From IMG/VR virus record IMGVR_UViG_3300005577_000027, positions 1 through 64,000 of that record: a stretch of 64,000 nt of DNA; one strand, given 5' to 3'. The notes beneath the pieces were generated by a model. It was not told where the DNA came from, searched no databases, and saw only the letters and a list, made by a program, of their open reading frames with translations. Positions 7,470 through 59,555 of this stretch are shown one piece after another (the stretch's first letter is position 1; every line of letters begins with the position of its first letter). Position numbers and translations under genes: made by a program. The DNA comes from a virus.

Positions 7470-7531
7470 GTTTTTAATTCCTTAACCAGACGAAAATACT
7501 TGGTTTTACTTATAATATATCGAATTATTAC

Positions 7532-12059: not shown

Positions 12060-12061
12060 TT

Positions 12062-13672
12062 TTATCCTATATAAATTTTGGAATCAAGAAATGATCCACT
12101 TTCATTTGTATGTTCAGCATTTTTACGATAAAGTGGTAAACAGTTTCCTTGAGCATCTTGATATACTTTATTTAATGGCAAATTCATATGACCACACATT
12201 ATATGTATACTATTCGGACTCTTTATCTGCATTGCACACTTATGGACAGATGCCGTCTTCTCTACACCCTTTGAACCAAGCTCATTTAAATATACACTCA
12301 TTCCAAATTGATACGCTTTTTCATCTCCAGAATTAGCTAGTACATTTAACGCATCTTCAGCCTTAGTAAAATCTCGATTACTCATTGAAACTTTAATGGT
12401 TTCAATTAATTCACTAGGCTTTGATCCGTAAAATTCTGAAGCTAATGAAGCCTTTGCAAAATCTTGTTCACTAAATAATTTATCAACTCCATCTTTATCA
12501 AATGATTCAACCATACCACCAGCCAAAGCTACCGTTGGAGGTACTGGACGATTATTTGCAAATTTAACCGGAACTTTTAATCCAGTTACTCCATTAGATA
12601 CTGCATAAACTACCTGAGTATTATTAACATCCGCTACTACAACCTGAACTTTATGCCCAAATGATTCCATAGCTTGACGAATCATAGTTCTGCCAACATC
12701 AACTACTGATTTACCATACGTTACCTCAGCTATACCTTTCGCTGAACTTAATTTTTGAGCAAATGTTTCAACTTCTTCAGCTTTTGATTCTAATTTAACA
12801 TCACCTGAATTTTTATCATTTAATTCAAAATATAAACCATTTTCAACAACATTAGCTTTTTTATTTAATGAAGCCTTTATTACAATCTTCTCAACATCAT
12901 TTAATGCTTCATCAGGCTTAACTCCATGTTTTGCCGTTTTTATTACATTTAATATAGCATCAACATTAGCTTTAAAATTTTTCCCTACACTAGCAATTAA
13001 ATGCTTACCCAAATTATCATGATTTAACGTCTCAAAACCAGCTTCACTTACAAATACCGTTGGAAACAAAGCTTTATCACCAGCAATTTCTACAGGGATT
13101 AATACATGACTCTGACCTTTTGGCGTCTCATAACTAGCTTTGCATAAAAGAACATCCTCATTACCAGCTACTGTTTCAATTTTTGCAGGCTGAACAGGAA
13201 AATAACTCAATTCTTTATTACAAACATTTTCAGCAGATTTCGCAATTTCTTTTGAATATAATTTTAATGGAGCTTTAGGATCAAAAGCCGACTCTAATGC
13301 ATTAACTAAAAGAGGATCTGCTGACTTAAAATAATCGTAACTCCCTTCATTCGGGTCACGATTCATTTTATTACCTTGAAAATCAGCTTGTTTTGAAATT
13401 TCTTTATCAAAATATTCAGCACAATGAGTCCCGGTAGTATAAAATTTATTATATACAGAATTTAATTCAGCTTTAGAAATAAACATCTCTTTTTCAGCTT
13501 TTAAACGAAGAAAAGCAGACATCGAATGAATCGTTGTATCTCCAGGATTCTCCTCGGCAGCTCTACTTAATCTTATCGCTAATGGACCTACTAGAAACTT
13601 CTCTTTAGCTTCTATTACGTTGGTTACTACGTCCATCGCTTTCTTAAAATTGTTAATATCATTCGGATTCAT
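12062..13672 (-). CDS. Large hypothetical (probable virion-associated) protein
   Basis: 536 residues, mixed alpha/beta, without transmembrane segments. Cysteines are sparse except near the C-terminus (HKCAMQIKSP, IMCGHMNLP). SD GAGGAA lies 5 bases before the ATG. It is the second gene of the run that leads to terminase and portal. No domain is recognised. Confidence 0.85.
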   Translation of the reverse strand: MNPNDINNFKKAMDVVTNVIEAKEKFLVGPLAIRLSRAAEENPGDTTIHSMSAFLRLKAEKEMFISKAELNSVYNKFYTTGTHCAEYFDKEISKQADFQGNKMNRDPNEGSYDYFKSADPLLVNALESAFDPKAPLKLYSKEIAKSAENVCNKELSYFPVQPAKIETVAGNEDVLLCKASYETPKGQSHVLIPVEIAGDKALFPTVFVSEAGFETLNHDNLGKHLIASVGKNFKANVDAILNVIKTAKHGVKPDEALNDVEKIVIKASLNKKANVVENGLYFELNDKNSGDVKLESKAEEVETFAQKLSSAKGIAEVTYGKSVVDVGRTMIRQAMESFGHKVQVVVADVNNTQVVYAVSNGVTGLKVPVKFANNRPVPPTVALAGGMVESFDKDGVDKLFSEQDFAKASLASEFYGSKPSELIETIKVSMSNRDFTKAEDALNVLANSGDEKAYQFGMSVYLNELGSKGVEKTASVHKCAMQIKSPNSIHIMCGHMNLPLNKVYQDAQGNCLPLYRKNAEHTNESGSFLDSKIYIG

Positions 13673-14309: not shown

Positions 14310-15224
14310 TCAAACCATTATTCTTTTACTTTCACGATTAATTGCCATCCTAGCCTTATGGCATTCTTTACAAATTCTAGCTAACCCATCAACTCTTGTT
14401 AAATCTATATAGAAATTAATAGAATCTATATCTTTTTGACACGTTCCGGCACAAAATTTAATAGGAGTTCGAGCAAATATTTGTTCTTTGGTTAGTTTTG
14501 AATTAGCATCTTTAACTTGCCGTCTATACTCTTTATCATTTTGAAGTAAAATTTCTTTATTATCGTCTTTATATTGTTTATTTTTTTCCTTAATTATTTC
14601 TTTATTTTTTTCAGCATATTCCTTTTTATAAAGACTTACTTTGTCTTTATTATTTTCATAATAATTTTTAGCTTGTTGAATATAAGGTTCAGGATTTTTA
14701 GCATAAGCATCTCTTCTAACTTGATTTCGACGTTCTTTTTCTTCTTCAGAAAGTCCAGATTTATATTCAGCAGTAATTTTAGCATGACATTCTTTACAGC
14801 AAAAACAAATGCCATCATGACTATATGCATTTTTAGTATAATCATCTTCTCGTGATTTTACTAATTTACATCTCGGACACTGTTTATGAGAATCCGTATT
14901 TAATGGATTTGAGTTTCCAAATCCACCACCACTTAGATTATATCCTACATCATTATTAGTGGCATCTAATTCCTTAATCCAGAAAATTTCTCTTTCATCA
15001 ATCCCAGCCTGATCTGTGACAATTTCTTCTAAAATTTCAAAACTAAAGCTTTCGTAGCCATATTTTCTTAAAGCCCTATAAAATAAAGGGCAAGCCTCAC
15101 TGTTCTTTTTCGCTGCTGATTTATGAGCTCGTTTTCGTTGTTCTATATTAAAACATTGCCCTACATAGATTTTATGATTAGCATCAACTAAATTAGTATA
15201 CTTATAGATATAATAAGTTCTCAT
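14310..15224 (-). CDS. GIY-YIG endonuclease with zinc modules
   Basis: 304 residues. The N-terminal nuclease has YYIYKYTN and KIYVGQC (residues 4-24), Arg30/Arg32 on the following helix and a distal Glu-rich segment (AGIDEREIFWIKEL). A CxxC...CxxC module follows (CPRCKLVKSRED, then CFCCKECHAK). A long Lys/Glu/Asn-rich helix leads to a second zinc module (KFCAGTCQKD, RICKECHKA). This is the layout of a free-standing homing-type endonuclease in which zinc fingers and a helical spacer give DNA specificity. Its target is not evident. The downstream terminator and the paralogous gene next to it suggest a mobile unit inserted into the phage backbone. Confidence 0.9.
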   Translation of the reverse strand: MRTYYIYKYTNLVDANHKIYVGQCFNIEQRKRAHKSAAKKNSEACPLFYRALRKYGYESFSFEILEEIVTDQAGIDEREIFWIKELDATNNDVGYNLSGGGFGNSNPLNTDSHKQCPRCKLVKSREDDYTKNAYSHDGICFCCKECHAKITAEYKSGLSEEEKERRNQVRRDAYAKNPEPYIQQAKNYYENNKDKVSLYKKEYAEKNKEIIKEKNKQYKDDNKEILLQNDKEYRRQVKDANSKLTKEQIFARTPIKFCAGTCQKDIDSINFYIDLTRVDGLARICKECHKARMAINRESKRIMV

Positions 15225-15628
15225 TTTAGTTTTTCCAATTTTTTAGCTGCTTTACAAATTCTTGATAAACCGTCTTTTTTAGTCTTATCAATAAAAAAAT
15301 CTTCACTATTGTGTGATATGTTACATTTAGGACAATATTTTATTGGAGTTTTACTATAAATTTCTTCTTTAGTTAGAAGGTCATTTTGTTCTTTAATAAT
15401 TTTTCTTTTCTCAGCTGTAGAATTTGCTGAAGCTTCTTTATTAGCTTCATAATATTGTTTATTTAGCTCTTTTCGTTTTTCAGCATTTAATTTACGATAT
15501 TCTTTTTGTTTATTTAAAACAGATTCTTTATTGTTATAATAATATTCAGTAGCATGCTCAATATGAGGTGTTGGATTTTCTGCATATTTTTCTCGGCGAA
15601 TTTTATTTGCTTCATCTTTATTATTCAT
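15221..15628 (-). CDS. GIY-YIG-associated paralogue lacking the nuclease domain
   Basis: 135 residues when started at the ATG preceded by AAGGAG. An open frame extends 28 codons further upstream but has no RBS there, and the promoter lies inside it. The protein aligns with the C-terminal half of the neighbouring GIY-YIG protein: NPxPxIxxAxxYYxNN, a Lys/Asn-rich helix, then LTKEEIYSKTPIKYCPKC. The last zinc ligands are lost, since RICKECHKA in the paralogue is RICKAAKKL here. It has no nuclease domain. It could be a relic of duplication or a DNA-binding antagonist of the endonuclease. Its end overlaps the endonuclease start by 4 bases. Confidence 0.8.
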   Translation of the reverse strand: MNNKDEANKIRREKYAENPTPHIEHATEYYYNNKESVLNKQKEYRKLNAEKRKELNKQYYEANKEASANSTAEKRKIIKEQNDLLTKEEIYSKTPIKYCPKCNISHNSEDFFIDKTKKDGLSRICKAAKKLEKLK

Positions 15629-15650
15629 ATGTATCTCCTTGAGTAGAAAC

Positions 15651-15679
15651 ACTATATGCATCGCACGATTCGAAGTCAA
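15651..15679 (-). promoter_or_regulatory. Sigma70-type promoter
   Basis: On the minus strand TTGACT, a 17-base spacer and TATAGT each match the sigma70 hexamers at 5 of 6 positions. Transcription would start about 20-25 bases before the ATG of the nuclease-less GIY-YIG paralogue. The RBS between them, AAGGAGATACAT, is strong. This is the clearest host-type promoter I found in the window. Confidence 0.6.
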
Positions 15680-15800
15680 CGCAGAAATGTAACCAAATCG
15701 ATCTTTTTCCAAATTACCCCTCAGAAGTCCGTGAGTAACAAATGTAGAAAAAAGTTTCCCACGGAGGAGCTTTTCATTAAATAAAAATCAATTCAATATA

Positions 15801-16322: not shown

Positions 16323-17114
16323 TTATAATTCTAATATATCATGATTTGGGCTATTATTTAAATATTCATCTATATCCTTAAATTCTTTAGGAATAATAAT
16401 TTTTTGAATATTAGCATTATTAGAATATTTTAATTTAGCTTTTTCGAATCCTTTTTTACCGGCATCATCATTATCAAACACAAAATACAAGTTATTAGTG
16501 TATCTTTTTAATATATAGAATTGATTTTTACTTAAATTGGCGTTACCTACAGCTACAGCATTATGGAAACCATGTCTATAGCAAGAAATGAAATCGAATT
16601 GACCTTCTACGATAAATACTGCATTTTTTTGAAGAATAGCTTTTTTAGATTTATATAGACCGAAAAGATGTTTATTTTTTTTAAATTCAGTATTTTTGTA
16701 TTTGGATATATTAATTTGTTGTTCTTTAGGTAATAAAGTTCTACCTACAAGTGCAATAATATCCCCATAAAGATTTTTATATGGTAGAATTAGGTTATGA
16801 TTTTCTAATGGTAACGAATTTTCTTTTAGAAAGATACCATCGGTTAGAAAATCTCTTTTATATAGAAGGCCTAATTTATTTAGTTTATTTTCACCATCAT
16901 CTAATAAATTAAGTAGATGAGTTAATTCAGAGAGTTTAGGGAAATAACCAAAATTAAATTCTTTTTGATAATGGGGTGAACATCTTTGATTTAGATAATT
17001 TCTGGCATTTTCGGCAATTGGGTGATATTTTAATAGAGTGGAACAAGCACTCATAACTTCGGCAAATAGTTCAGATTTAAATATTATTTGTTTAGATAAT
17101 TCAATACAATTCAT
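16323..17114 (-). CDS. DnaG-type primase catalytic (Toprim) protein, zinc finger missing
   Basis: 263 residues. An N-terminal primase-like segment (ARNYLNQRC, FNFGYFPK) is followed by a core with LILPYKNLYGDIIALVGRTL. The Toprim fold has VEGQFD at 169-174 and DNDDAGKKG at 214-222, the metal-binding glutamate and aspartates. The zinc-binding CHC2 domain that precedes this core in cellular DnaG is absent. A separate CHC2 gene lies about 24 kb away, so primase appears split into two polypeptides. The helicase-binding C-terminal domain is also absent. The start overlaps the stop of the upstream zinc-site gene as ATGA. Confidence 0.88.
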   Translation of the reverse strand: MNCIELSKQIIFKSELFAEVMSACSTLLKYHPIAENARNYLNQRCSPHYQKEFNFGYFPKLSELTHLLNLLDDGENKLNKLGLLYKRDFLTDGIFLKENSLPLENHNLILPYKNLYGDIIALVGRTLLPKEQQINISKYKNTEFKKNKHLFGLYKSKKAILQKNAVFIVEGQFDFISCYRHGFHNAVAVGNANLSKNQFYILKRYTNNLYFVFDNDDAGKKGFEKAKLKYSNNANIQKIIIPKEFKDIDEYLNNSPNHDILEL

Positions 17115-17311
17115 TCAATTATATCTTTTATTATTTTTTCTTCATTAGAAAGACAGAAAACATTAGAGCCTGCTCTTAAATTTCTTGTAGTTGATTCATA
17201 TAATATATAATTACAATATTTACAATGATACATATCAAATAATTTAATACTGATAACTTTATAAATTAAATGTTCGCCAGTTGTTTCATCTGTATATTTA
17301 ATATATTTCAT
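17111..17311 (-). CDS. Small zinc-site protein with EExIIxxII tail (subfamily A)
   Basis: 66 residues. The layout is His14 (GEHLIY), CKYC at about residues 31-34, a lone Cys (VFCLS) and the tail SNEEKIIKDIIE. One zinc ion bound by His-Cys-Cys-Cys is a reasonable prediction. Its stop overlaps the primase start. Closest relatives are the two genes immediately upstream. Confidence 0.8.
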   Translation of the reverse strand: MKYIKYTDETTGEHLIYKVISIKLFDMYHCKYCNYILYESTTRNLRAGSNVFCLSNEEKIIKDIIE

Positions 17312-17536
17312 TTAATTTATTATATCTATTATAATTCTTTCTTCATTAGTTAAACATATACTACTTGTAATATATGTATTACGTAATTTTTTAAGTTTAC
17401 GATCAAAAATAAAAACATATGTTAATTTAAAATTACAATATTTACAATTATATACCTGTGCCGCTCCATGAGAAGTTGCACAATAAATCAAATGTTTATC
17501 TTTAGTTTGATCGTCTATATATTCGATATATTCCAT
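17312..17536 (-). CDS. Small zinc-site protein with EExIIxxII tail (subfamily A)
   Basis: 74 residues. It begins MEYIEYIDDQT and has KHLIY, VYNCKYCNFKL, SSICLTNEE and the tail EERIIIDIIN. The ligand spacing is that of subfamily A. It abuts the next gene with no gap, so the two are probably coupled. Confidence 0.8.
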   Translation of the reverse strand: MEYIEYIDDQTKDKHLIYCATSHGAAQVYNCKYCNFKLTYVFIFDRKLKKLRNTYITSSICLTNEERIIIDIIN

Positions 17537-17538
17537 AT

Positions 17539-17751
17539 TTAATCAATTAAATCTTTAATAATTTTTTCTTCATCATTTAAACAATGATATTTATTATTAA
17601 CTTTAATATCTAAAGTCGCCAAATGTACTAATACGAATTCACAATATTTACAATTATAAATAATATTACCACTTATAATGGAACTTAATGGATCTTTGTA
17701 AATTACATGCTTACTTTTTGTTTCTTCGTCTATATATTCAATGTATTCCAT
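17539..17751 (-). CDS. Small zinc-site protein with EExIIxxII tail (subfamily A)
   Basis: 70 residues: MEYIEYIDEET, KHVIY, IYNCKYCEFVL, YHCLNDEE and the tail EEKIIKDLID. The first eight residues are identical to those of the gene downstream except one, so these are recent duplicates. The function of the family is unknown. Confidence 0.8.
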   Translation of the reverse strand: MEYIEYIDEETKSKHVIYKDPLSSIISGNIIYNCKYCEFVLVHLATLDIKVNNKYHCLNDEEKIIKDLID

Positions 17752-17754
17752 TAC

Positions 17755-17826
17755 TTAATCTCGGCTTTTTTTAAATATGAGAGAAAGAAATAGAATAATA
17801 CCCGCAAAAACAATAATTAAATCCAT
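17755..17826 (-). CDS. Tiny single-span membrane peptide
   Basis: A 23-codon ORF, MDLIIVFAGIILFLSLIFKK plus SRD, fills the gap between two genes. One hydrophobic span of about 16 residues followed by a KK-R charge cluster is the classic form of a small inner-membrane protein, with the C-terminus in the cytoplasm by the positive-inside rule. The RBS is weak. Composition and the tight fit into the gap are the only support. Confidence 0.45.
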   Translation of the reverse strand: MDLIIVFAGIILFLSLIFKKSRD

Positions 17827-17836
17827 TTATAAATCT

Positions 17837-18163
17837 TTATTTTTTAATTTTTTCTCGAATTAAGGTAGCAAAAGGAGCTGAAATATTATCTAAAACATTT
17901 TTGCAATTCGAGCATATTATTTTATTATTTTGGTCAACTGATGGGACGCAAACTTTGTTACATTTTTTACATTCTACAGCGAAGGCTTTCTCGCTTTTTT
18001 TCGTACGTTTAATTTGACCGAGACCTTTCATAGAGATTTTGGTAGAATGAGGGACTGTGATATTTTTGCCACACTCAATACATTCAACTTCGTTATTTTC
18101 GGTATTTAAGACGGCTTCATTTTCTTTGCCGCAGCCTTTATTAGTACAATATATTCTAAACAT
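17837..18163 (-). CDS. Double zinc-ribbon protein
   Basis: 108 residues with two ribbons: CTNKGCG with CIECGK (residues 5-34), then CKKCNKVC with CSNCKN (about 68-92), joined by a basic linker (GQIKRTKKSEK). The pattern suits nucleic-acid or protein binding. It sits between subfamilies A and B of the small zinc-site array but lacks their tail and is built differently, so it is probably not a member. Confidence 0.8.
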   Translation of the reverse strand: MFRIYCTNKGCGKENEAVLNTENNEVECIECGKNITVPHSTKISMKGLGQIKRTKKSEKAFAVECKKCNKVCVPSVDQNNKIICSNCKNVLDNISAPFATLIREKIKK

Positions 18164-18172
18164 TTAATTTCC

Positions 18173-18397
18173 TTAATCTATTATGGATTTGATAATATAT
18201 TCAGTGCAGGTTAATGTAAATAAAATCAATTTAAACTTTTCTTCTGAATAATATAATCGATTACAATCATTACCAGATATATCCACTTTGCAATTACATT
18301 TTTCACAAATATAAATATCATAAAAATTATCACATGTATCAAAGTAAATAAAATAATGATCTAGATATTTAAATGATTTTTGATTTGTAACTGACAT
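18173..18397 (-). CDS. Small zinc-site tail protein (subfamily B, 1)
   Basis: 74 residues: FKYLDHYF (His), YICEKCNCKV (CxxC), FTLTC (Cys) and the tail TEYIIKSIID. It is the most downstream intact subfamily-B member in transcription order. Ligand order and spacing match the other members; the segment between CxxC and the tail is unique. Confidence 0.8.
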   Translation of the reverse strand: MSVTNQKSFKYLDHYFIYFDTCDNFYDIYICEKCNCKVDISGNDCNRLYYSEEKFKLILFTLTCTEYIIKSIID

Positions 18398-18399
18398 AT

Positions 18400-18630
18400 T
18401 TATTCTATAATTGATTTAATTATATATTCATTGCAATATAATTTTAATTGACTAAAATCAAATGAGTTTAAATCAGATAAATAATCTAAATTATTATCAA
18501 ATATCAGAATTTTATAATTACATTTTTCACAAATATAAATATCTTCCCGAGTTTCTAAGAAAAATGTTACTTGAGACCATAAAAATTTATGTCCTAAACG
18601 AACAAATTTCTTATATTTTAAATCTTTCAT
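18400..18630 (-). CDS. Small zinc-site tail protein (subfamily B, 2)
   Basis: 76 residues: FVRLGHKF, YICEKCNYKI, LKLYC and the tail NEYIIKSIIE. The Thr of the LTC motif is Tyr here. The long plus-strand frame opposite is a shadow. Confidence 0.8.
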   Translation of the reverse strand: MKDLKYKKFVRLGHKFLWSQVTFFLETREDIYICEKCNYKILIFDNNLDYLSDLNSFDFSQLKLYCNEYIIKSIIE

Positions 18631-18631
18631 A

Positions 18632-18859
18632 TTATTCTATTATTGATTTGATCATATATTCATCGCAGGTAAGAGTAAATTTAATACCTGGATATAATGC
18701 TGAATAATCATATATTTCATTACTATTATACATAGAATATACTTTACAATTACATTTCTCACAAATATACATACAATATGCATTACCTTTGATTTCTAAA
18801 ACAAATTTATGAGTCAAATAATTAAATTTAGATTTAACTGGAATGTCTATATTATCCAT
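18632..18859 (-). CDS. Small zinc-site tail protein (subfamily B, 3)
   Basis: 75 residues: FNYLTHKF, YICEKCNCKV, FTLTC and the tail DEYMIKSIIE. Its SIIE ending groups it with the two neighbours on its downstream side, which fits local duplication. Confidence 0.8.
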   Translation of the reverse strand: MDNIDIPVKSKFNYLTHKFVLEIKGNAYCMYICEKCNCKVYSMYNSNEIYDYSALYPGIKFTLTCDEYMIKSIIE

Positions 18860-19066
18860 TTAATCAATTATTTTTCTAATAATCCATTCGTCACAGGTAA
18901 CAAATGATATAGTATTTTCAACTTTAGTTCCATTTTTCGTAATTAAATAATAATTCCCATTCATATCCTGATACAACATTATATCACAAATATCACATTT
19001 AAAATCATAATTTTTATTAAAGCCATAAATTTTACATTGGCTTAATTGATGAGTTAAATATTTCAT
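18860..19066 (-). CDS. Small zinc-site tail protein (subfamily B, 4; KYLTH group)
   Basis: 68 residues: MKYLTHQLSQCKIYG, FKCDICDIM, SFVTC and the tail DEWIIRKIID. It belongs to a very close subgroup (this gene, the decayed copy next to it and the three genes beyond) sharing MKYLTHxLSxCxIYG and LITxNG. The upstream pseudogene's TGA overlaps its ATG. Confidence 0.82.
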   Translation of the reverse strand: MKYLTHQLSQCKIYGFNKNYDFKCDICDIMLYQDMNGNYYLITKNGTKVENTISFVTCDEWIIRKIID

Positions 19067-19266
19067 TCTATAATCTTTTTGATAATAACTTCATCGCAAG
19101 TTAATACAAATTCAGTTAATTTTACATTGTTTCCATTATCAGTAATTAAATAAAATTCTGAATGATTCTTGAGCAAATATACTCCACAGATATCACATTT
19201 ATAATCATAGATATTATCTGTACCATAAATTTTACATTAGCTTAATTGATGAGTTAAGTATTTCAT
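19063..19266 (-). pseudogene. Subfamily B copy with a nonsense codon at position 10
   Basis: The frame is 68 codons long and has all family landmarks: MKYLTHQLS at the start, YKCDICGVY, VLTC and the tail DEVIIKKIIE. Codon 10 is TAA where the closest paralogue has CAA (Gln in LSQCKIYG). A single C-to-T change explains it. The flanking ATGA overlaps with both neighbours are kept, so decay is recent. Without readthrough or an internal start it cannot make the zinc site. Confidence 0.85.
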
Positions 19267-19469
19267 TCTATTATTTTTCTAATAATCCATTCGTCACAAG
19301 TTAGCAAAAATATATTAGATTTAACATTATTTCCATTATTTGTAATTAATTTATAATTACCCATTGAATTTAAATATAATATTACGCCACAAACATCACA
19401 TTTATAATCAGAAGTGTTATTAGTGCCATATATGTGACATTGACTTAATTTATGCGTTAGGTATTTCAT
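19263..19469 (-). CDS. Small zinc-site tail protein (subfamily B, 5; KYLTH group)
   Basis: 68 residues: MKYLTHKLSQCHIYG, YKCDVCGVI, LLTC and the tail DEWIIRKIIE. ATGA overlaps join it to genes on both sides. The central segment KLITNNGNNVKSN is shared with neighbours, unlike the more diverged members at the upstream end of the array. Confidence 0.82.
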   Translation of the reverse strand: MKYLTHKLSQCHIYGTNNTSDYKCDVCGVILYLNSMGNYKLITNNGNNVKSNIFLLTCDEWIIRKIIE

Positions 19470-19675
19470 TCTATTATATTTCTAATAATCCATTCATCGC
19501 AAGTAAGTGAAAATTTATCATCTTCAACATCATTTCCATTATTTGTAATTAATAAAAATTTACCAAAGTAATCTTCAAGTAAATACACTCCACAAATATT
19601 ACATTTATAATCATGGTCATTATATGGACCATAAATTTTAGTTGGGTTTAATGTATGAGTTAAATATTTTTTCAT
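19466..19675 (-). CDS. Small zinc-site tail protein (subfamily B, 6; KYLTH group)
   Basis: 69 residues: KYLTHTLNPTKIYG, YKCNICGVYL, FSLTC and the tail DEWIIRNIIE. The Cys of the LSxC motif is Thr here, so that Cys is not a conserved ligand in the family. Confidence 0.82.
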   Translation of the reverse strand: MKKYLTHTLNPTKIYGPYNDHDYKCNICGVYLLEDYFGKFLLITNNGNDVEDDKFSLTCDEWIIRNIIE

Positions 19676-19879
19676 TTAATCAATTATTTTTTTAATAATC
19701 CATTCATTACAAGTAAACAAAAATACATCACTTTCAATATAATTTATATCATTTCTAATTAAATAATAATTTCCTTGTATTGAAAAATATAATATTACAT
19801 TACAAATATTGCATTTATAACCAAATTGCTCAAGTCCATATATACTACATGGACTTAATTCGTGGGTTAAATACTTCAT
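19676..19879 (-). CDS. Small zinc-site tail protein (subfamily B, 7; KYLTH group)
   Basis: 67 residues: MKYLTHELSPCSIYG, YKCNICNVI, FLFTC and the tail NEWIIKKIID. It is the shortest intact subfamily-B member; the spacer before CxxC is reduced. Its start overlaps the stop of the upstream member. Confidence 0.82.
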   Translation of the reverse strand: MKYLTHELSPCSIYGLEQFGYKCNICNVILYFSIQGNYYLIRNDINYIESDVFLFTCNEWIIKKIID

Positions 19880-20106
19880 TCTATGATATTTTTAATAATC
19901 CATTCATCGCAAGTTAAATTTAAATTAATTAATTTTTTATTACTCGTATCAATAACTTTCAAAACTATTTTTTCATAAGGAATTTTATCATTTATATTAA
20001 GATAAGCAACGCAATTACATTTTTTACATAAATAAGTATAATTTATATTTGTTGATATACATTCAAATTTATGTTCTAAATATTTAATTTCAGCTAAATT
20101 TATCAT
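19876..20106 (-). CDS. Small zinc-site tail protein (subfamily B, 8)
   Basis: 76 residues: IKYLEHKF, YLCKKCNCVA, LNLTC and the tail DEWIIKNIIE. It shares LxEIKYLEHKF and CNCVxxLxIN with the next gene upstream, marking a second subgroup. Confidence 0.8.
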   Translation of the reverse strand: MINLAEIKYLEHKFECISTNINYTYLCKKCNCVAYLNINDKIPYEKIVLKVIDTSNKKLINLNLTCDEWIIKNIIE

Positions 20107-20330
20107 TCTATTATGTTTTTAATAATTATTTCATCACAAGTTAAATTTAACTTTTCATAATATTTATCATTATCATACATTAAAAGCAAATTATCATATT
20201 TAGCATGATTATTTATATAAAGATCTACTACACAATTACATTTTTCGCATAAATAAGAATAACAAATCCAATCTTCATAAATTAATTTAAATTTATGCCC
20301 CAAATGTTCGATATCTACTAATGGCATCAT
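20103..20330 (-). CDS. Small zinc-site tail protein (subfamily B, 9)
   Basis: 75 residues: IEHLGHKF, YLCEKCNCVV, LNLTC and the tail DEIIIKNIIE. ATGATG at its start overlaps the stop of a decayed copy. Confidence 0.8.
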   Translation of the reverse strand: MMPLVDIEHLGHKFKLIYEDWICYSYLCEKCNCVVDLYINNHAKYDNLLLMYDNDKYYEKLNLTCDEIIIKNIIE

Positions 20331-20550
20331 TCTACTATATTTTTAATTATTATTTCTTCGCAAGTAAAAATTAATTTAACATATAAATCATCAATAACTG
20401 AATATGGAATAGCAGGATGTGTATTATGACTATCTACTACAATATTACATTTTTCACAATGATAACTAGAATATTTTATATTTTATATTTTTAAAAAATT
20501 CAGGATTTTTTTTCAATTAATATAAAATTATGATTTAAGTAATTTTCATC
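20327..20550 (-). pseudogene. Decayed subfamily B copy (lost start, stop codons inside)
   Basis: The 3' part is intact in one frame: SSYHCEKCNIVVDS, then LIFTC and the tail EEIIIKNIVE. Upstream, YLNHNFILIEKKS is still readable in another frame but ends in TGA, more stops follow, and the start codon is out of frame. At least one indel and nonsense changes are needed to explain this. Zinc ligands and tail remain recognisable. Confidence 0.82.
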
Positions 20551-20558
20551 AAACGTAA

Positions 20559-20798
20559 CTATCCTGTAATATTACTAATAATCATTTCATCACATGTTAA
20601 TTTTAACAATTGATAAGATGTTTTACTATCATCCCAATAATACCAACTACTGTCATTTTCTCTGTTAAAACATCTAATATGACATTTATCACAATAATAA
20701 AATGAAATTATATAATTTTTATCTTTATTAGTAAATTTAAAAATTTTAACATATGATTGATAATATGAACTAAAATTATGATTTAAATAATTAAGCAT
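20559..20798 (-). CDS. Small zinc-site tail protein (subfamily B, 10)
   Basis: 79 residues: LNYLNHNF, YYCDKCHIRC, LKLTC and the tail DEMIISNITG. The tail is the most divergent of the intact members (SNITG instead of KNIIE). The decayed copy lies just downstream, so selection may be relaxed here. Confidence 0.78.
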   Translation of the reverse strand: MLNYLNHNFSSYYQSYVKIFKFTNKDKNYIISFYYCDKCHIRCFNRENDSSWYYWDDSKTSYQLLKLTCDEMIISNITG

Positions 20799-21025
20799 TA
20801 TTCTATTATATTTTTAATAAGAACTTCATCACACGTTAATTTATTTATTTTATCCAAATGAATATCATAAATTTTATACCTCGTGGCGGTTTTATGACAC
20901 ATTAAATATAATTCAGTATGTATAATATATATTGAATCACATATTTCACAGCTATATCTATCATATTCTGCTAAAGAATTTTTAAAAATAAATCTATGAC
21001 CTAAATATTCAATATTTGGTTTCAT
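20798..21025 (-). CDS. Small zinc-site tail protein (subfamily B, 11)
   Basis: 75 residues: IEYLGHRF, YSCEICDSIY, NKLTC and the tail DEVLIKNIIE. Its boundaries share one base with each neighbour (TAATG-type junctions). Confidence 0.8.
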   Translation of the reverse strand: MKPNIEYLGHRFIFKNSLAEYDRYSCEICDSIYIIHTELYLMCHKTATRYKIYDIHLDKINKLTCDEVLIKNIIE

Positions 21026-21258
21026 TATTCTAATATATTCTTAATTATCATTTCATCACAAGTTAACTTCAGTGGCCCATATGTTCCATCTAAATAAATT
21101 AAATATTCATCTTCCATTCTATAATTATATACAGTATTTTTTGGATAGAGCGTAAACTTATAACCACACCTCAAACATAAAAATACAGTATAATAAGTAC
21201 GTTTATTTATGATTTTACAAATGTGACCTAAATATTCGTGGTCTGTGTTTATATTCAT
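21025..21258 (-). CDS. Small zinc-site tail protein (subfamily B, 12)
   Basis: 77 residues: HEYLGHIC, FLCLRCGYKF, LKLTC and the tail DEMIIKNILE. The spacer before CxxC is basic (KIINKRTYY). No other domain is seen. Confidence 0.8.
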   Translation of the reverse strand: MNINTDHEYLGHICKIINKRTYYTVFLCLRCGYKFTLYPKNTVYNYRMEDEYLIYLDGTYGPLKLTCDEMIIKNILE

Positions 21259-21461
21259 TCTATTATATTTTTAATTATTACTTCATCACAAGTTAAATCT
21301 AAATCTCTAAAATAATTTATTCCATAAATATAATACTCGTGTTTACTATTACTACGCAAAAAAGATTGAATATGAGAATTACATTTAACACATATATAAG
21401 TATATAGACCATAAGTTTTATGTAATAATTGTAATTCATGGCCTAAAATAATTTTATTCAT
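21255..21461 (-). CDS. Small zinc-site tail protein (subfamily B, 13)
   Basis: 68 residues: KIILGHEL, YICVKCNSHI, LDLTC and the tail DEVIIKNIIE. ATGA overlap joins it to its downstream neighbour. Confidence 0.8.
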   Translation of the reverse strand: MNKIILGHELQLLHKTYGLYTYICVKCNSHIQSFLRSNSKHEYYIYGINYFRDLDLTCDEVIIKNIIE

Positions 21462-21697
21462 TATTCTATTATATTTTTAATTATTATTTCATCACAAGTT
21501 AAATTTAATGAGTTATGGAATACATACAATTGATTAAAACAAACCCAATATTTATCCTCTTTTACATTACTATACGGTATTCCAATTTCACATTTACTAA
21601 TTTTACAATTACACTTTAAACAAAAATAAGTAACGTAACAAGTGGTTTTAGTTAAAGGTGAAAAATTATGTCCTAAATATTCAAAATTTGATAACAT
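21461..21697 (-). CDS. Small zinc-site tail protein (subfamily B, 14)
   Basis: 78 residues: FEYLGHNF, YFCLKCNCKI, LNLTC and the tail DEIIIKNIIE. It resembles the next upstream gene in YW-containing central residues (KYWVCF versus QYWLHD). Confidence 0.8.
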   Translation of the reverse strand: MLSNFEYLGHNFSPLTKTTCYVTYFCLKCNCKISKCEIGIPYSNVKEDKYWVCFNQLYVFHNSLNLTCDEIIIKNIIE

Positions 21698-21699
21698 AT

Positions 21700-21942
21700 T
21701 TATTCCACTATATTTTTAATTATCATTTCATCGCAAGTTAAATTTAATATTTTATACGGTTTGCCATAAATATCATGAAGCCAATATTGATTTTTATTCG
21801 ATTTATAATATGGAGTATCTATAAACTTATCAACTTTACAATTACACCTATTACAGGTATAAGTTTTACCATAGTTACTTATTATAATTAATTCAAATCT
21901 ATGATTTAAGTATTCAATAATTTCATTTATTACAGAATCCAA
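21700..21942 (-). CDS. Small zinc-site tail protein (subfamily B, 15), TTG start
   Basis: About 80 residues: IEYLNHRF, YTCNRCNCKV, LNLTC and the tail DEMIIKNIVE. No ATG is available. I place the start at a TTG directly after the dnaJ stop, with GAGAGTGAG just upstream; this gives a protein of the usual family length. A more upstream TTG inside dnaJ would give 88 residues. It is the first gene of the array in transcription order, so the array probably continues the dnaJ transcript. Confidence 0.75.
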   Translation of the reverse strand: MDSVINEIIEYLNHRFELIIISNYGKTYTCNRCNCKVDKFIDTPYYKSNKNQYWLHDIYGKPYKILNLTCDEMIIKNIVE

Positions 21943-21943
21943 T

Positions 21944-22876
21944 TTACTCACTCTCAAGCAACTCAATTAATTTTTGAGTATCCTGTGGGTAATTTACACT
22001 TATATTAAAAATATGACTACCATGTCCCTCAACTCCATACCCATGTACCTGTACAGAATTTCCATTTTTAATATTTGCGGGTATTTTTAAATTCATTTCC
22101 CCTTTTACCGTTTTTACAGGTTTTAACGTTCCCTTTAAAGCTTCTAAAAGAGAAATATTTATATCGGAAACTACATTACCATCTTCCAATCTCATATCAG
22201 AATCAGCTTCTACATTTATTTTAATAAATCCACCAGGAATTTTTAATACATTATTATTTAATACACCACCAGGAATTTTAATTTTTTTGTTCATTTTAAT
22301 CGATGTAAATCCTTTTTCCTCACAAGGTTTACACGGATTTTGAATTTTGCCAGTTCCCTTACATTTTTGGCACTGTTCAATAAAACTCATAGCTCCACGC
22401 GAAAATGAAGCTTGTTTTGCCCCTTTACCCTGACAAAAATTACAATTATTTACATCAGAAGTAGAACCATTTCCATGACAAACACCACAAGTTTGATTTT
22501 GTGTAATTTCTAATTCTTTTTCTACACCTAAAACAGATTCAGCAAAAGAAATTGTAGTATTATTAGGTGCAATGGGGGCAGGATTAGAACCAAAACCACC
22601 GAATCCGCCGCCAAAAGGATTACCACCAAATGCTTGATTAAAAAGATCCTGAAAATTTATATTAACAGAATTATTAAAATCCTGTTGTCTAGGAGAAGGA
22701 TTTGTTAATAATTGATAAGCTGAATTAATTTCTTTAAATTTACTTTCTGCATCAGGATTATCTTTATTTAAATCTGGATGATATTTTTTAGCTAATTTTC
22801 TAAATGCAGCTTGGATTTCTTCCGGAGTAGCTGAAGGTTGCAATTCTAATATTTTATAAGCTTCTTGTGAATTCAT
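21944..22876 (-). CDS. dnaJ: DnaJ-type Hsp40 co-chaperone
   Basis: 310 residues with type I (DnaJA) architecture. The J domain has HPD at residues 33-35. A short Gly/Phe region follows (NPFGGGFGGFG). The zinc-binding domain has four CxxCxGxG-type repeats: CGVCHGNG, CNFCQGKG, CQKCKGTG and CKPCEEKG, the last imperfect. The C-terminal substrate-binding domain is shortened compared with cellular DnaJ of about 375 residues. The HPD would allow it to stimulate host DnaK; no DnaK gene is seen here. It is followed directly by the zinc-site array, possibly on one transcript. Confidence 0.95.
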   Translation of the reverse strand: MNSQEAYKILELQPSATPEEIQAAFRKLAKKYHPDLNKDNPDAESKFKEINSAYQLLTNPSPRQQDFNNSVNINFQDLFNQAFGGNPFGGGFGGFGSNPAPIAPNNTTISFAESVLGVEKELEITQNQTCGVCHGNGSTSDVNNCNFCQGKGAKQASFSRGAMSFIEQCQKCKGTGKIQNPCKPCEEKGFTSIKMNKKIKIPGGVLNNNVLKIPGGFIKINVEADSDMRLEDGNVVSDINISLLEALKGTLKPVKTVKGEMNLKIPANIKNGNSVQVHGYGVEGHGSHIFNISVNYPQDTQKLIELLESE

Positions 22877-27869: not shown

Positions 27870-28103
27870 CTACTCTATAATATTTTTAATAATAAACTCT
27901 TCTTCAGTTAAATTAATATAATCTACTATTTCATCAAATGTTATATTAAATTTATTTAATACATGTTTTTGATACATAAAATAAAAAATACTAATCTGCC
28001 AAAATATTTCAGGTGTAGAATTTGATTTAAAACCTAATTCTAATTTAGTCGAATTGTCACTTTTTTCAATTTTTTGGCCTGATTGCTTAATATCTTTTAT
28101 CAT
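27870..28103 (-). CDS. Zinc-less tail protein (subfamily C, 1)
   Basis: 77 residues, without CxxC. MIKDIKQSGQKIEK is followed by a beta-type middle (LELGFKSNSTPEIFWQI), a helix (NKFNITFDEIVDYIN) and the tail LTEEEFIIKNIIE. It is shorter at the N-terminus than its neighbours. A GATATATAAT motif lies about 20 bases upstream. Confidence 0.8.
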   Translation of the reverse strand: MIKDIKQSGQKIEKSDNSTKLELGFKSNSTPEIFWQISIFYFMYQKHVLNKFNITFDEIVDYINLTEEEFIIKNIIE

Positions 28104-28135
28104 TAAGCTAAATCGGTATATTTATTATATATCAT

Positions 28136-28432
28136 TTATTCTATTATATTTTTAATAATAAATTCTTTTTCAGTTAAATTAACATAATCTACTATTTGAT
28201 CTAAAGTTATATTTAATTCATTTTTTAATTCTTTTAGTGAATTCGTTGTAATTAAACTTGAACTCATAACAAAATGTATTTTATAATTTGCTTGTGAAAA
28301 TGTTTTAAATATTAAATCAATGGAATTATTAATTTTTATAATTTTATGATTTAGCGCTTTCATATCACTTACCATAAAAGATAAATTAGTATATCTATTA
28401 AAATAATGCTCATTTTTAAAAAATTTAGTCAT
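28136..28432 (-). CDS. Zinc-less tail protein (subfamily C, 2)
   Basis: 98 residues: YTNLSFMVSDMKALNHKIIK, a beta-type middle, LNITLDQIVDYVN and the tail LTEKEFIIKNIIE. The ITxDQIVDYVNLT segment is almost identical to the next gene upstream. Confidence 0.8.
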   Translation of the reverse strand: MTKFFKNEHYFNRYTNLSFMVSDMKALNHKIIKINNSIDLIFKTFSQANYKIHFVMSSSLITTNSLKELKNELNITLDQIVDYVNLTEKEFIIKNIIE

Positions 28433-28444
28433 ATTAAATTATAT

Positions 28445-28726
28445 TTATTCTATTATATTTTTAATAATAAATTCTTCATCGGTTAAGTTAACATAATCAA
28501 CTATTTGATCTATTGTTATGTTTAATTTATTTAATGAATTATTTTTTTTAACTAAATCTAACCTAATCATCCAACAAAATTTAGCAGTTGATTCTGAATG
28601 TGATTTAAATTCTAATTCAAAATAATTATCACATTTTACAATTTTATGGCCAGAATTTTTCATATCTTCTACCATATAAAGTAAATTATCATATCTATTG
28701 AAATTATAATATTTACCAGTAATCAT
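28445..28726 (-). CDS. Zinc-less tail protein (subfamily C, 3)
   Basis: 93 residues: YDNLLYMVEDMKNSGHKIVK, FCWMIRLDL, LNITIDQIVDYVN and the tail LTDEEFIIKNIIE. It is the closest paralogue of the previous member. No zinc ligands are conserved in this subfamily. Confidence 0.8.
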   Translation of the reverse strand: MITGKYYNFNRYDNLLYMVEDMKNSGHKIVKCDNYFELEFKSHSESTAKFCWMIRLDLVKKNNSLNKLNITIDQIVDYVNLTDEEFIIKNIIE

Positions 28727-28748
28727 AATTAAATCTTTAATTATACAA

Positions 28749-29048
28749 TTAATCTATTATATTTTTAATAATAAATTCTTCTTTGGTTAAATTCATATAA
28801 TCATATAATTGACTATATTTTATATTTAATCTAGATTCAATTATTTTTTTACATTCTTTAAAAGGCAAAATAACAAACCATACTTCATCATTATCACGTA
28901 AACGAAATCCGAATTCCTCACAATCAAATTTGGCATGATAATAAATATCAATTTTATGTGTATCTTTCTTAATATCCTGAATCATTGATATTAAATCATT
29001 ATTATCATATTCAATATATTTAATATTATATTTAATATATTTTATCAT
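28749..29048 (-). CDS. Zinc-less tail protein (subfamily C, 4)
   Basis: 99 residues: an Ile/Tyr-rich start (MIKYIKYNIKYIEYDNND), MIQDIKKDTHKIDI, LNIKYSQLYDYMN and the tail LTKEEFIIKNIID. Its N-terminal YIKY/YIEY pattern recalls zinc-site subfamily A, an extra link between the families. It starts within the stop of dnaE (ATGA). Confidence 0.8.
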   Translation of the reverse strand: MIKYIKYNIKYIEYDNNDLISMIQDIKKDTHKIDIYYHAKFDCEEFGFRLRDNDEVWFVILPFKECKKIIESRLNIKYSQLYDYMNLTKEEFIIKNIID

Positions 29049-44135: not shown

Positions 44136-44330
44136 TTAATTAATTATTTGAAATATTAACCATTCTTCATCAGTTTTAATGTCTGGATAACAAATATCAT
44201 TTAACCAATATTCTTTTTCTCCATCATTATATTCTATAGCTGGTCCATCTTCACTATGAGAAATTTTCGTACCTTCTTTAAACTAATAAATATTTCCATA
44301 TTCATTTTTTCCACAATATGATTTAGTCAT
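44136..44330 (-). pseudogene. MORN-variant tail gene with nonsense codon
   Basis: A 65-codon frame, MTKSYCGKNEYGNIY-stop-FKEGTK, is followed by HSEDGPAIEYNDGEKEYWL and the tail TDEEWLIFQIIN. Codon 16 is TAG where the paralogues have TGG (Trp in IxWYK). A single base change explains it. Compared with its relatives it also keeps only one repeat unit. Confidence 0.85.
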
Positions 44331-44594
44331 TTAATTTATAATTTGAAATATAATCCATTCTTTATCGGTTTTAATATCTGGATAATATTTCCCATTTAAA
44401 TAGTAATATTTAAATCCATTAATATATTCTATTGCAGGGCCATCTGTTCTGTGGCGTCTATCATTTTGATACCACCATTTTGTTCCATCATTCCATTCTA
44501 AAGCTGGACCATCTTCCCTATGAAGAAGATTTGTACCTGTTTTGTACCAACGAATATTTCCATATTCGTCTTTTTTTGAATATACTTTAGTCAT
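44331..44594 (-). CDS. MORN-variant repeat protein with EEWIIFQIIN-type tail (1)
   Basis: 87 residues: MTKVYSKKDEYGNIRWYKTG, then the repeat unit HREDGPALEWNDGTKWWYQN and a second, HRTDGPAIEYINGFKYYYLN, ending YYPDIKTDKEWIIFQIIN. The units belong to the variant MORN-type repeats (HREDGPAxExxNGxxxWYxNG) known from giant viruses and phages. The tail replaces the last repeat. Confidence 0.82.
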   Translation of the reverse strand: MTKVYSKKDEYGNIRWYKTGTNLLHREDGPALEWNDGTKWWYQNDRRHRTDGPAIEYINGFKYYYLNGKYYPDIKTDKEWIIFQIIN

Positions 44595-44595
44595 A

Positions 44596-44925
44596 TTAAT
44601 TAATTATTTGAAATATCAACCATTCTTCATCTGTAGTGATATTTGGATAATATTTATCATTCAGATAATAATATCCACTTCCATTCAATATTATTGCTGG
44701 GCCATCCTTTCTATGACATAATCCATTTAACCAATATTCTTTATATCCATCAATATAATCTATAGCTGGACCATCTGCTCTATGGAGTTCTCCATCATAG
44801 TACCATTCTTTAGATCTATTTGAATATTCTTTAGCTGGACCATCTTCTCTATGAGGAATTTTAGTTCCTTCTTTATACCAACAAATAGTTCCATATTTAT
44901 TTTTTTCAAAATATACTTTAATCAT
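44596..44925 (-). CDS. MORN-variant repeat protein with EEWLIFQIIN tail (2)
   Basis: 109 residues with three units: HREDGPAKEYSNRSKEWYYD, HRADGPAIDYIDGYKEYWLN and HRKDGPAIILNGSGYYYLN, then YYPNITTDEEWLIFQIIN. One unit more than its neighbour, so array members differ by whole repeats. Confidence 0.82.
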   Translation of the reverse strand: MIKVYFEKNKYGTICWYKEGTKIPHREDGPAKEYSNRSKEWYYDGELHRADGPAIDYIDGYKEYWLNGLCHRKDGPAIILNGSGYYYLNDKYYPNITTDEEWLIFQIIN

Positions 44926-44926
44926 A

Positions 44927-45283
44927 TTAATTTATTATTTGAAATATAATCCATTCTTCGTCAGTTTTAATATTTGGATAATATTTTCCATATAACCAAT
45001 ATTCTTGATCAGCATAATCCCAATCTTTGTTCCCGTCATAGATATTATTATCTATCGCCGGGCCATCCGTTCTATGACGTTCTCCATTTTGATACCAATG
45101 TTTAGCACCATCATAAAATTCTACAGCTGGACCACTTATCCTATGACATAATCCATTTTGATACCATAATTTAGTTCCATTGGTCTGCTCTATAGCTGGT
45201 CCATCTTCTCTATGTAGAATTTCTGTACCCTTTTTATACCAATAAATAGCATGAGGATATTTTCTACTACAAATTCCAGCCAT
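44927..45283 (-). CDS. MORN-variant repeat protein with EEWIIFQIIN tail (3)
   Basis: 118 residues from MAGICSRKYPHAIYWYKKG; an in-frame extension of 17 codons into the upstream gene is unlikely. Units: HREDGPAIEQTNGTKLWYQN, HRISGPAVEFYDGAKHWYQN and HRTDGPAIDNNIYDGNKDWD, then YYPNIKTDEEWIIFQIIN. It is the first and longest member of the array in transcription order. Confidence 0.8.
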   Translation of the reverse strand: MAGICSRKYPHAIYWYKKGTEILHREDGPAIEQTNGTKLWYQNGLCHRISGPAVEFYDGAKHWYQNGERHRTDGPAIDNNIYDGNKDWDYADQEYWLYGKYYPNIKTDEEWIIFQIIN

Positions 45284-45299
45284 TTTATTTAAAATAAAA

Positions 45300-45611
45300 T
45301 TACTTAGTCTTTTTTGAACGATTCGGCAAAACATCAGAAATTTCTACTGGCTGTGCTGCTTTTCGCTCAATTGTAATATACGTATCACCCTGATTTACAT
45401 CAAATTTATGAGAAATTGCATTCTCTAATGACGTAATTACGGACGATACTGATATCTTTACATACAATTTACTCCCAGGAATTTTATTAATTGGAGTTAC
45501 ATATTGCGATATTTTTTGATTAGGTAAACCAAACATATCAATACTAAGATCTTTAATTTCATCCCAAATTAATTCAGATTCAAATTTCTTTACTTCTTTT
45601 TCATCAGCCAT
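45300..45611 (-). CDS. Hypothetical protein
   Basis: 103 residues, alpha/beta, with a strand-rich centre (SKLYVKISVSSVITSLENAI) and a C-terminus that ends basic (PNRSKKTK). No family is recognised. A GATATATTTT motif lies 35 bases upstream of its ATG, and the RBS includes GAGGAT. Confidence 0.82.
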   Translation of the reverse strand: MADEKEVKKFESELIWDEIKDLSIDMFGLPNQKISQYVTPINKIPGSKLYVKISVSSVITSLENAISHKFDVNQGDTYITIERKAAQPVEISDVLPNRSKKTK

Positions 45612-54649: not shown

Positions 54650-55329
54650 AGTTTTATCAACTTTTCAATAGCATCTCTTACATCACCATTATATTCGTTT
54701 GGCGCAGGGATTTCATTTCCAACACAGATAAAATCTTTATAATCTTTTCTGGCAAATATTTCTAATTTTTTATTATAATTTGGATACATTTTTTCTAAAC
54801 GTTCATGTAAAACATAAGGTTTTTCAGAATGTTTAGGATTAGGACCGAAAAATACTGAGATTTGAGATTTATTTTTTCGATCATTTGAAGTTTTTCCCCT
54901 ACTACCAATTAAAGCGACTTCATGAGTTTGACGAAAAAATCTTCCTAAATAACATTTCATCGTATCATTTAAATCAAAATTATCAATCAAATCCAATACT
55001 TGTTGATCGTTTTTTTCTTTTAATGCTTTTTTGACTTGTTTTTTTAACTTAATTAAAGGTTCATTTTTAGATTTTACCCAAATAAATGTTTGTTTAAAAT
55101 CAAATCCATAATTTTCCATGGCTGATAATCCAACATCAATTAATGTTGACGGTACCCATAAAGCCAAAATAGCATTATCTTCAGCTAAATCTTTTATATT
55201 TAAATTAATTATATCGTCACAGGTTAAAATAGATTTATATTGAGATTCTGCCCCGCGCTTTGTTTTACTCATAGTCAATCTATCAGAAAAAGCATACGGT
55301 GGGTCCATTATTATTAAATTAAATTTCAT
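54646..55329 (-). CDS. MT-A70-type N6-adenine DNA methyltransferase
   Basis: 227 residues. The catalytic motif DPPYAF is at residues 9-14 (DPPW in most MT-A70 enzymes, DPPY in others). AILALWVPSTLIDVGLSAM and FIWVKSKNEP resemble the LxLWxT...vGFxxxxxxxWxK core, and HEVALIGSRGK and KPYVLHERLEKMYPN follow the family order. It would methylate adenines in phage DNA, possibly to protect it from restriction; the recognition site is unknown. A relic of the tail-protein family ends on its start codon. Confidence 0.87.
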   Translation of the reverse strand: MKFNLIIMDPPYAFSDRLTMSKTKRGAESQYKSILTCDDIINLNIKDLAEDNAILALWVPSTLIDVGLSAMENYGFDFKQTFIWVKSKNEPLIKLKKQVKKALKEKNDQQVLDLIDNFDLNDTMKCYLGRFFRQTHEVALIGSRGKTSNDRKNKSQISVFFGPNPKHSEKPYVLHERLEKMYPNYNKKLEIFARKDYKDFICVGNEIPAPNEYNGDVRDAIEKLIKL

Positions 55330-55418
55330 TCTATTATATTTTTTATTATCATTTCATCACATGAAACTGGAAAACTATTAAACTAAAATCACAATAATGA
55401 AAAATTATTTCTATTCAT
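55326..55418 (-). pseudogene. Relic of a tail-protein gene (start and tail only)
   Basis: An ATG that overlaps the upstream stop opens MNRNNFSLL followed by TGA. Further on, in another frame and directly after a TAG, FNSFPVSCDEMIIKNIIE runs to a TGA that overlaps the methyltransferase ATG as ATGA. The first part recalls the LGHNFS start of subfamily B and the second is its exact tail. The middle, including CxxC, is missing. This is a deleted member about 33 kb from the array. Confidence 0.75.
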
Positions 55419-55824
55419 TTAATAATAATTTAATTTTTGTCTGTAAAAGTTCAATATTTAAAATTTTTTCTTTTCTAATTAAGGAATCTCTATTTTCAAT
55501 TAAGTTATCATATTCTTTACGCATTTTACAAAGAGAATGAACATCTTTAAATGTAAGTTTTTTAGAAAAATCACCTTCTAATTCTCTCAGATTTTCTGCT
55601 GGCAAGGAGTTTAATAATTCTTCCATCGGAGCGTCTGAAGAATCATTTCTACCTTTTCGATGTATAAAATTTACAGCATTTTTTATCACTTCTACATTGG
55701 AAAGATTTGTATCCAAATGTTTCTTTACATCAAAAATAGAAGAATTAATATCAATAATTTCTTTATTTTTACTAAGATTTCGTTTAATTTTATTATAAAC
55801 TAATTTAACTTCTTTTTTTACCAA
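55411..55824 (-). CDS. Hypothetical coiled-coil protein
   Basis: 137 residues, Lys/Glu/Asn-rich and helical (KLTFKDVHSLCKMRKEYDNL), with a basic N-terminus. No motif is recognised. Confidence 0.78.
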   Translation of the reverse strand: MVKKEVKLVYNKIKRNLSKNKEIIDINSSIFDVKKHLDTNLSNVEVIKNAVNFIHRKGRNDSSDAPMEELLNSLPAENLRELEGDFSKKLTFKDVHSLCKMRKEYDNLIENRDSLIRKEKILNIELLQTKIKLLLNE

Positions 55825-59489: not shown

Positions 59490-59555
59490 ATTTAAAATTG
59501 AACCTCTTACTTTAAGTAGTGCAAAGTAAATCAGAACTCGACGCAAACAAATTTA

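Follow-up and report, generated by a model that had tools for sequence, protein, structure and literature searches.

What keeps one short protein ending constant while the protein before it varies? This question is raised by a window of 64,000 nucleotides, bases 1-64000 of the 131-kb IMG/VR record IMGVR_UViG_3300005577_000027 (hereafter G000), where tandem small open reading frames (ORFs) with a predicted one-zinc site lie at 17111-21942 on the minus strand and close with a common C-terminal tail. Matches to terminase, portal, DnaE-type polymerase and UvsX identified G000 as a tailed bacteriophage, distant from its closest named phages (terminase at most about 26% identical). A first-pass annotation of the window had described the tail as a constant feature of this array; it was indeed present on the array members, but it was not private to them, being found on unrelated non-zinc proteins throughout G000. 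We consider it probable that the tail is a transferable C-terminal docking, or addressing, helix on a fast-evolving accessory arsenal.

A shared tail on unrelated proteins

The tail occupies 12-13 residues at the extreme C-terminus and reads [ST]-x-[DE]-E-x-(I/M)-I-(K/R)-(N/D/E)-I-I-(E/K/N/D)-stop, an example being the peptide LTCDEWIIKNIIE. Dozens to more than 100 small proteins of a single genome end in this way within one lineage of large phages. Relatives were recruited from IMG/VR using the tail as a DNA pattern and using the zinc family (G001, 7.4 kb; G002, 84.6 kb; G003, which is IMGVR_UViG_3300028920_000022, 458.7 kb; G004, 23.8 kb; G005, 435 kb; G006, 33.9 kb; and G007, a fragment of 42.7 kb), and carriers were counted from ORFs, not from annotated genes. 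A whole-genome scan of ORF ends found the tail on 46 ORFs of G000 against 0.08 expected, and a wider tail rule gave 57 carriers against 0.3. Carriers of any kind numbered 104 in G003 (0.95 expected), 71 in G005 (1.1), 20 in G002 (0.25), 7 in G001 (0.0), 6 in G006 (0.0) and 6 in G007 (0.1). As a control, 6681 ORFs from 78 other-phage loci were scanned with the tail rule, and 3 carriers were observed against 1.6 expected.

The position of the tail was strict. Six tagged genomes together contained 154 copies of the motif [ED].[IM]I[KRQ][DNESK]I[IV]; in 150 of them a single residue separated it from the stop, in four it abutted the stop, and internal occurrences numbered 0. Four relatives without the tag had 0 copies, and a strict tail pattern was absent from GTDB bacterial contigs. 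When C-termini were clustered without any motif, a single giant cluster formed in five of the six tagged genomes (sizes 54, 20, 149, 124 and 8), while shuffled ends gave clusters of 3 at most. Tails of zinc and of other proteins co-varied within genomes (permutation p = 0.0005, an optimistic value because paralogs are not fully independent), and position -3 of the tail was N in G000 and G002 and D in G005. The Ile codons ATA, ATT and ATC were freely mixed at the tail, which indicates that the peptide, and not the DNA, is what selection keeps.

The proteins closed by this tail were of many kinds. Carriers in G000 include 22 HRxDGPAxE-repeat proteins and four zinc-less ORFs, and those lying in the window outside the zinc array are as follows.

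27870..29048, minus: four tandem zinc-less ORFs with an unrelated body, ending NLTxEEFIIKNII(E/D), beside the polymerase gene; this slot is empty in G005
44136..45343, minus: four HRxDGPAxE-repeat ORFs (one a fragment), ending T(D/N)(E/K)EW(I/L)IFQIIN; the genome's other half has about 20 more

Carriers in G005 were mostly non-zinc and included several tandem families ending LTEDE(L/M)MIKDIIE, four tagged proteins of G003 had strong predicted membrane helices, and G006 carried one tagged RuvC, whose orthologs in four relatives lacked the tail. Altogether, 87 carriers other than the zinc proteins fell into 68 body clusters. When eleven families were compared by hhalign with their tails on, many pairs scored 60-98%, for example 96% for two G005 families and 91% for the zinc family against a zinc-less G000 family. 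With the tails removed, nearly all pairs dropped to 1.5% or less, the one exception being a pair of G005 families at 57%. The tagged bodies are thus unrelated as far as their sequences tell. Searches of these bodies against Pfam, PHROGs, PADLOC, PDB sequences, Foldseek PDB and BFVD returned nothing significant except the RuvC and one DUF6794, and there were weak single matches, for example one to a 4TM-effector. In an AlphaFold2 model of an unrelated tagged G005 protein, the tail formed a terminal helix that was the least confident part of the model.

HRxDGPA-repeat proteins were widespread in IMG/VR (at least 545 stretches, L047-L124). Copies within a record usually had a common, record-specific C-terminus and varied in repeat number. 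The shared tail as a general property of these proteins was rejected, since the other records have endings of their own that were unseen on unrelated proteins nearby.

The core genome presented another picture. A syntenic core was common to G000, G001, G003, G005 and G006, with the portal about 60% and the terminase 52-59% identical, and with the polymerase at about 56% identity in G003 and G005. Among the core genes common to G000, G003 and G005, none was tagged (0 of 57, 65 and 60, respectively), and on these scans the core replication and virion genes lack the tail. Tail carriers almost never had a body homolog in another genome. Eleven other records with the same core, including ones of 266, 321 and 140 kb, had 0 matches to a strict tail pattern, whereas the same scan counted 15 in G000, 27 in G003 and 48 in G005. 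Fragment L209, whose core is as in G000, had three A-type genes with LLE endings that fall outside the strict pattern. In the relative G015 (IMGVR_UViG_3300033149_001601), the zinc proteins at 7321-8032 and 11667-12211 ended differently, in M-x-x-A/S-L-x, and a zinc-less ORF next to them had this ending too (5 observed against 0.125 expected). Judging from these endings, G015 possibly carries a second, genome-specific version of the tag.

The predicted one-zinc array in a variable slot

The array consists of 15 intact and two broken ORFs of subfamily B and three ORFs of subfamily A, almost back to back on the minus strand. Inspection of the ORFs confirmed the earlier count of 15 intact B and three A members and their extent, 17111-21942. 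The members and borders of the slot, and one relic elsewhere in the window, are listed here.

21944..22876, minus: core DnaJ-like gene without tail, directly upstream of the array, bounding the variable slot on the left
18173..21942, minus: subfamily B array, 15 intact ORFs with His/CxxC/Cys and tail
21700-21942, 21461-21697, 21255-21461, 21025-21258 and 20798-21025, minus: B ORFs 1-5
20559-20798, 20103-20330, 19876-20106, 19676-19879 and 19466-19675, minus: B ORFs 6-10
19263-19469, 18860-19066, 18632-18859, 18400-18630 and 18173-18397, minus: B ORFs 11-15
20327..20558, minus: broken B copy with a degraded 5' half; CxxC and tail are left
19063..19269, minus: broken B copy with an early in-frame stop; CxxC, Cys and tail are still readable
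17837..18163, minus: core zinc-ribbon ORF of 108 residues without tail, between the A and B sets; it has conserved counterparts in G001, G003, G005 and G006
17111-17751, minus: subfamily A, three ORFs
17539..17751, minus: A member 1, with KH / CKYC / C and the tail DEEKIIKDLID
17312..17536, minus: A member 2, with the tail NEERIIIDIIN
17111..17311, minus: A member 3, with the tail NEEKIIKDIIE; it shares bases with the beginning of the primase ORF
16323..17114, minus: core primase/Toprim gene without tail, directly downstream; right border of the variable slot
55326..55442, minus: relic of a B-type gene with internal stops, ending CDEMIIKNIIE

Neighbouring genes had been described as joined by ATGA or TAATG. 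This was nearly right: genes overlap by four bases (ATGA) or one base (TAATG), or lie 0-2 bases apart. From this layout, the array genes are probably expressed from one message. The same DnaJ-primase slot that holds the 15+2 B and three A genes in G000 holds 3 and 2 zinc genes in G001 and is empty in G003. When the array was sought in the relatives and its copies compared, zinc-family members ranged from 5 to 115 per genome (G000, 26; G001, 6; G002, 14; G003, 115; G004, 5; G005, 19). In G003, a run of about 50 tandem zinc-tail genes was seen at about 27-49 kb, and several of its 115 zinc-family matches contain stops.

The order His, CxxC, Cys and constant tail was borne out in the window members. 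Eight positions were invariant in 14 B members of the window (L8, H10, C26, C29, C68, E70, I73 and I76). The set was then extended to 75 relatives, drawn from five virus records and averaging 17% column identity; the His was kept in 73/73 sequences where aligned and the three Cys in 75/75. Because the selection rule for this set demanded the CxxC and the Cys before the tail, and not the His, it tests only the His independently, beside the window's own members. Within these 75 relatives, the excess conservation of ligands over other positions that the zinc-site proposal calls for was found: the ligand columns had an entropy of 0 against a median of 3.06 bits, and the four tail Ile ranked next.

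An AlphaFold2 model of the zinc protein, built from the extended-set alignment, was confident (predicted local distance difference test, pLDDT, 93.3; predicted template modelling score, pTM, 0.80). It showed a small beta fold with six short strands, followed by a C-terminal helix (59-68) whose start coincides with the fourth ligand. The conserved ligands and this confident model, with its helix starting at the fourth ligand, together make it likely that the array proteins are a one-zinc His-CxxC-Cys scaffold, as had been proposed. No Pfam or PHROG family fitted the zinc proteins, Foldseek against PDB and BFVD returned nothing significant, PDB sequences gave weak CxxC matches only, and none of the curated zinc-finger and zinc-ribbon profiles passed its cut-off. 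Among the named phages of INPHARED no relative was found, the sole match being weak (E 0.1).

It had also been suggested that the variable surfaces recall a set of anti-defence or host-takeover proteins. The variability, the tandem birth-and-death of copies and the patchy distribution fit such a role, but direct support was not obtained, as the zinc proteins had no Pfam, PHROG or fold match and the other tagged bodies gave no convincing PADLOC match.

A probable docking helix and alternatives

The tail is best read as a docking tag because it is a strictly terminal, predicted helix on unrelated, variable accessory bodies and not on core proteins, is coordinated within genomes and differs in some relatives. 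We infer that it would form a capped amphipathic helix and bind one shared partner, encoded by the phage or the host, while the variable body of each accessory protein would meet a different host or phage target. The tagged proteins would then be brought to, or act through, the same hub. In such a scheme the zinc array would be one expanded class of tagged proteins, whose body may be a rigid one-zinc scaffold with the fourth ligand capping the tag helix, and which would have multiplied and diversified in the slot between the DnaJ and primase genes. As a first guess, ahead of a phage structure or the capsid, the hub would be a host machine and serve adaptor-like recruitment in host takeover or counter-defence; the nature of the hub and the outcome, whether this, delivery to a structure or something else, are the least certain parts. 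We regard it as an even call whether the tail marks a genome-wide plug-in system of this large-phage lineage, with dozens to more than 100 unrelated small proteins per genome, a genome-specific helix, one hub, and new bodies recruited by tag fusion.

Several points weigh against the docking tag. The carriers of the G007 fragment formed no cluster in the motif-free test, about 1 chance carrier is expected in each large genome, and the tagged RuvC is a single instance. The co-variation test counts paralogs as independent, and the likeness of tails within a genome could come partly from gene conversion or copied gene ends. In the zinc model, the tail helix was placed with a block pLDDT of 91-97, and there it may pack against the body that carries it. 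The genomes compared are all uncultivated metagenomic contigs, and the hub candidates examined in the phage genomes yielded no identified partner. Among these candidates, DnaJ and trigger factor were rejected: both belong to the core whether or not a phage is tagged, so their presence does not follow that of the tag. A T4-type RNA ligase (L009:14226-15455; G000 about 78.1-79.4 kb) and a histidine phosphatase (L009:2866-3717; G000 about 66.8-67.6 kb) were present in G000, G003 and G005 and absent from the untagged G008, G009 and G010; they track the tag in these six large records but were set aside, as nothing ties them to the tail. A 494-residue ORF and a VWA/metallopeptidase ORF were each also found in one untagged relative, and neither was retained.

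Of the other explanations, the tail as a virion-packaging tag fared best, although we judge it unlikely. It would load small proteins into the capsid for injection with the DNA, as does the T4 capsid targeting sequence (CTS). The logic is the same, a constant terminal tag on variable small bodies with many fast-evolving members, and no core gene is among the tagged proteins. However, the T4 sequence is N-terminal and cleaved, whereas the tail is strictly C-terminal; membrane proteins such as the four predicted in G003 would be odd as injected cargo, one carrier is a RuvC, and a virion with more than 100 kinds of cargo protein would have no precedent.

It is less likely still that all carriers form one superfamily, in which a single small ancestor had the C-terminal helix as a structural core element and the bodies diverged, so that the fold, and not a tag, is conserved. 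The zinc-protein helix does begin at one of the ligands and is modelled with confidence, and carriers are mostly small and tandem. But independent relatives without the tag exist for the HRxDGPA-repeat proteins and for RuvC, predicted membrane proteins are tagged too, almost no profile similarity between bodies is left without the tail, the second model is least confident at the tail, and the zinc proteins of G015 end differently. Similarly doubtful is a turnover tag, by which the tail would be a C-terminal degron for a host or phage AAA+ protease that keeps potent takeover proteins short-lived. A strict C-terminal position would suit it, as would a conserved phage AAA+ gene (58131-59546) whose other-phage matches often carry the annotation FtsH; yet that gene has no peptidase domain match and a close homolog in an untagged relative, and classical degrons such as the ssrA ending do not look like a capped, amphipathic and charged helix with a final Glu. 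That gene ends are kept because they serve the following array gene as a site of ribosome binding or recombination is hardly credible: genes do overlap at ATGA or TAATG and an AGG-like stretch is present in 44/104 G003 tails, but such stretches occur in just 4/57 G000 and 1/20 G002 tails, isolated carriers with none within 1 kb keep the tail (2 in G000, 8 in G003, 11 in G005), the family signal sits at the protein level, and nucleotide-level conservation was rejected on the unconstrained synonymous variation of the Ile positions.

Other genes were noted in the window. The phage trigger factor, a core folding chaperone in addition to the DnaJ-like gene, lies at 33423-34622 minus (PF05697, E 1.2e-22; PF05698, E 6.4e-8); relatives keep it at about 33-49%, whether tagged or not. 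The conserved AAA+ gene at 58131-59546 minus is adjoined by topoisomerase I at 59556-61781 minus. A transposase-like ORF at 61951-63237 minus (phrog_12300, E 2.8e-21) had no homolog in the relatives compared. Two adjoining ORFs at 14310-15712 minus have similar Cys-rich C-terminal segments and both match one longer G001 ORF; one of them has, by eye, a GIY-YIG-like start.

Comparison with known systems

Novelty was assessed from the database searches above and an open-access literature search; such a tag was found undescribed in the open-access literature searched, with subscription papers and preprints outside its scope. Genes of large phages are mostly small, unalignable and unannotated. The shared tag singles out more than 260 such proteins across eight records at once, groups unrelated orphans as one functional set and predicts a common partner for them.

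The T4 CTS sits on a handful of proteins, unlike the tail reported here, which was C-terminal in 154/154 strict matches and is carried by 57 to more than 100 proteins per genome, predicted membrane proteins included. The two are alike as short terminal tags on diverse, fast-evolving small phage proteins, and some of the T4 internal proteins are known anti-restriction proteins (PMC3012670). Here, too, the tag was conserved over unrelated variable small proteins, and an N-terminal targeting sequence was not what was found. In chimalliviruses, according to a review, import into the phage nucleus does not use conventional terminal signals (PMC13282480).

The array proteins also resemble treble-clef and zinc-ribbon folds, as sequence and model suggest a CxxC knuckle, short strands and a C-terminal helix from a zinc ligand. 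They are unlike them in that the first ligand is an N-terminal His, and no Pfam, PDB-sequence or Foldseek match was found beyond weak CxxC similarity.

Microcompartment encapsulation peptides and encapsulin cargo-loading peptides are short, often amphipathic-helical termini on unrelated proteins that are recognised by one shell. The likeness lies in a short terminal helix common to unrelated proteins: AlphaFold2 placed terminal helices on two unrelated bodies, and the tagged families are akin through the tail only. They differ in that the carriers here belong to the accessory arsenal of a phage rather than to a single enzyme pathway. Were the hub to prove a phage structure, the tail would be a new code for cargo or localisation.

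In poxvirus ankyrin/F-box (PRANC) proteins, the N-terminal bodies vary while a common C-terminal module docks them to a single host machine (PMC9414399). The tagged proteins are likewise a multigene set in which the N-terminal body varies and the C-terminal module is common to all, but the module here is a helix of about 12 residues, the bodies are of many unrelated kinds, and Pfam found no F-box or PRANC match in the window members, the 75 zinc proteins or 78 other tagged proteins. Should the hub prove to be a host machine, the tagged set would be to bacterial viruses what the F-box adaptors are to poxviruses. The confinement of the tag to some relatives, together with the other ending of G015, offers a natural comparison for finding the partner.

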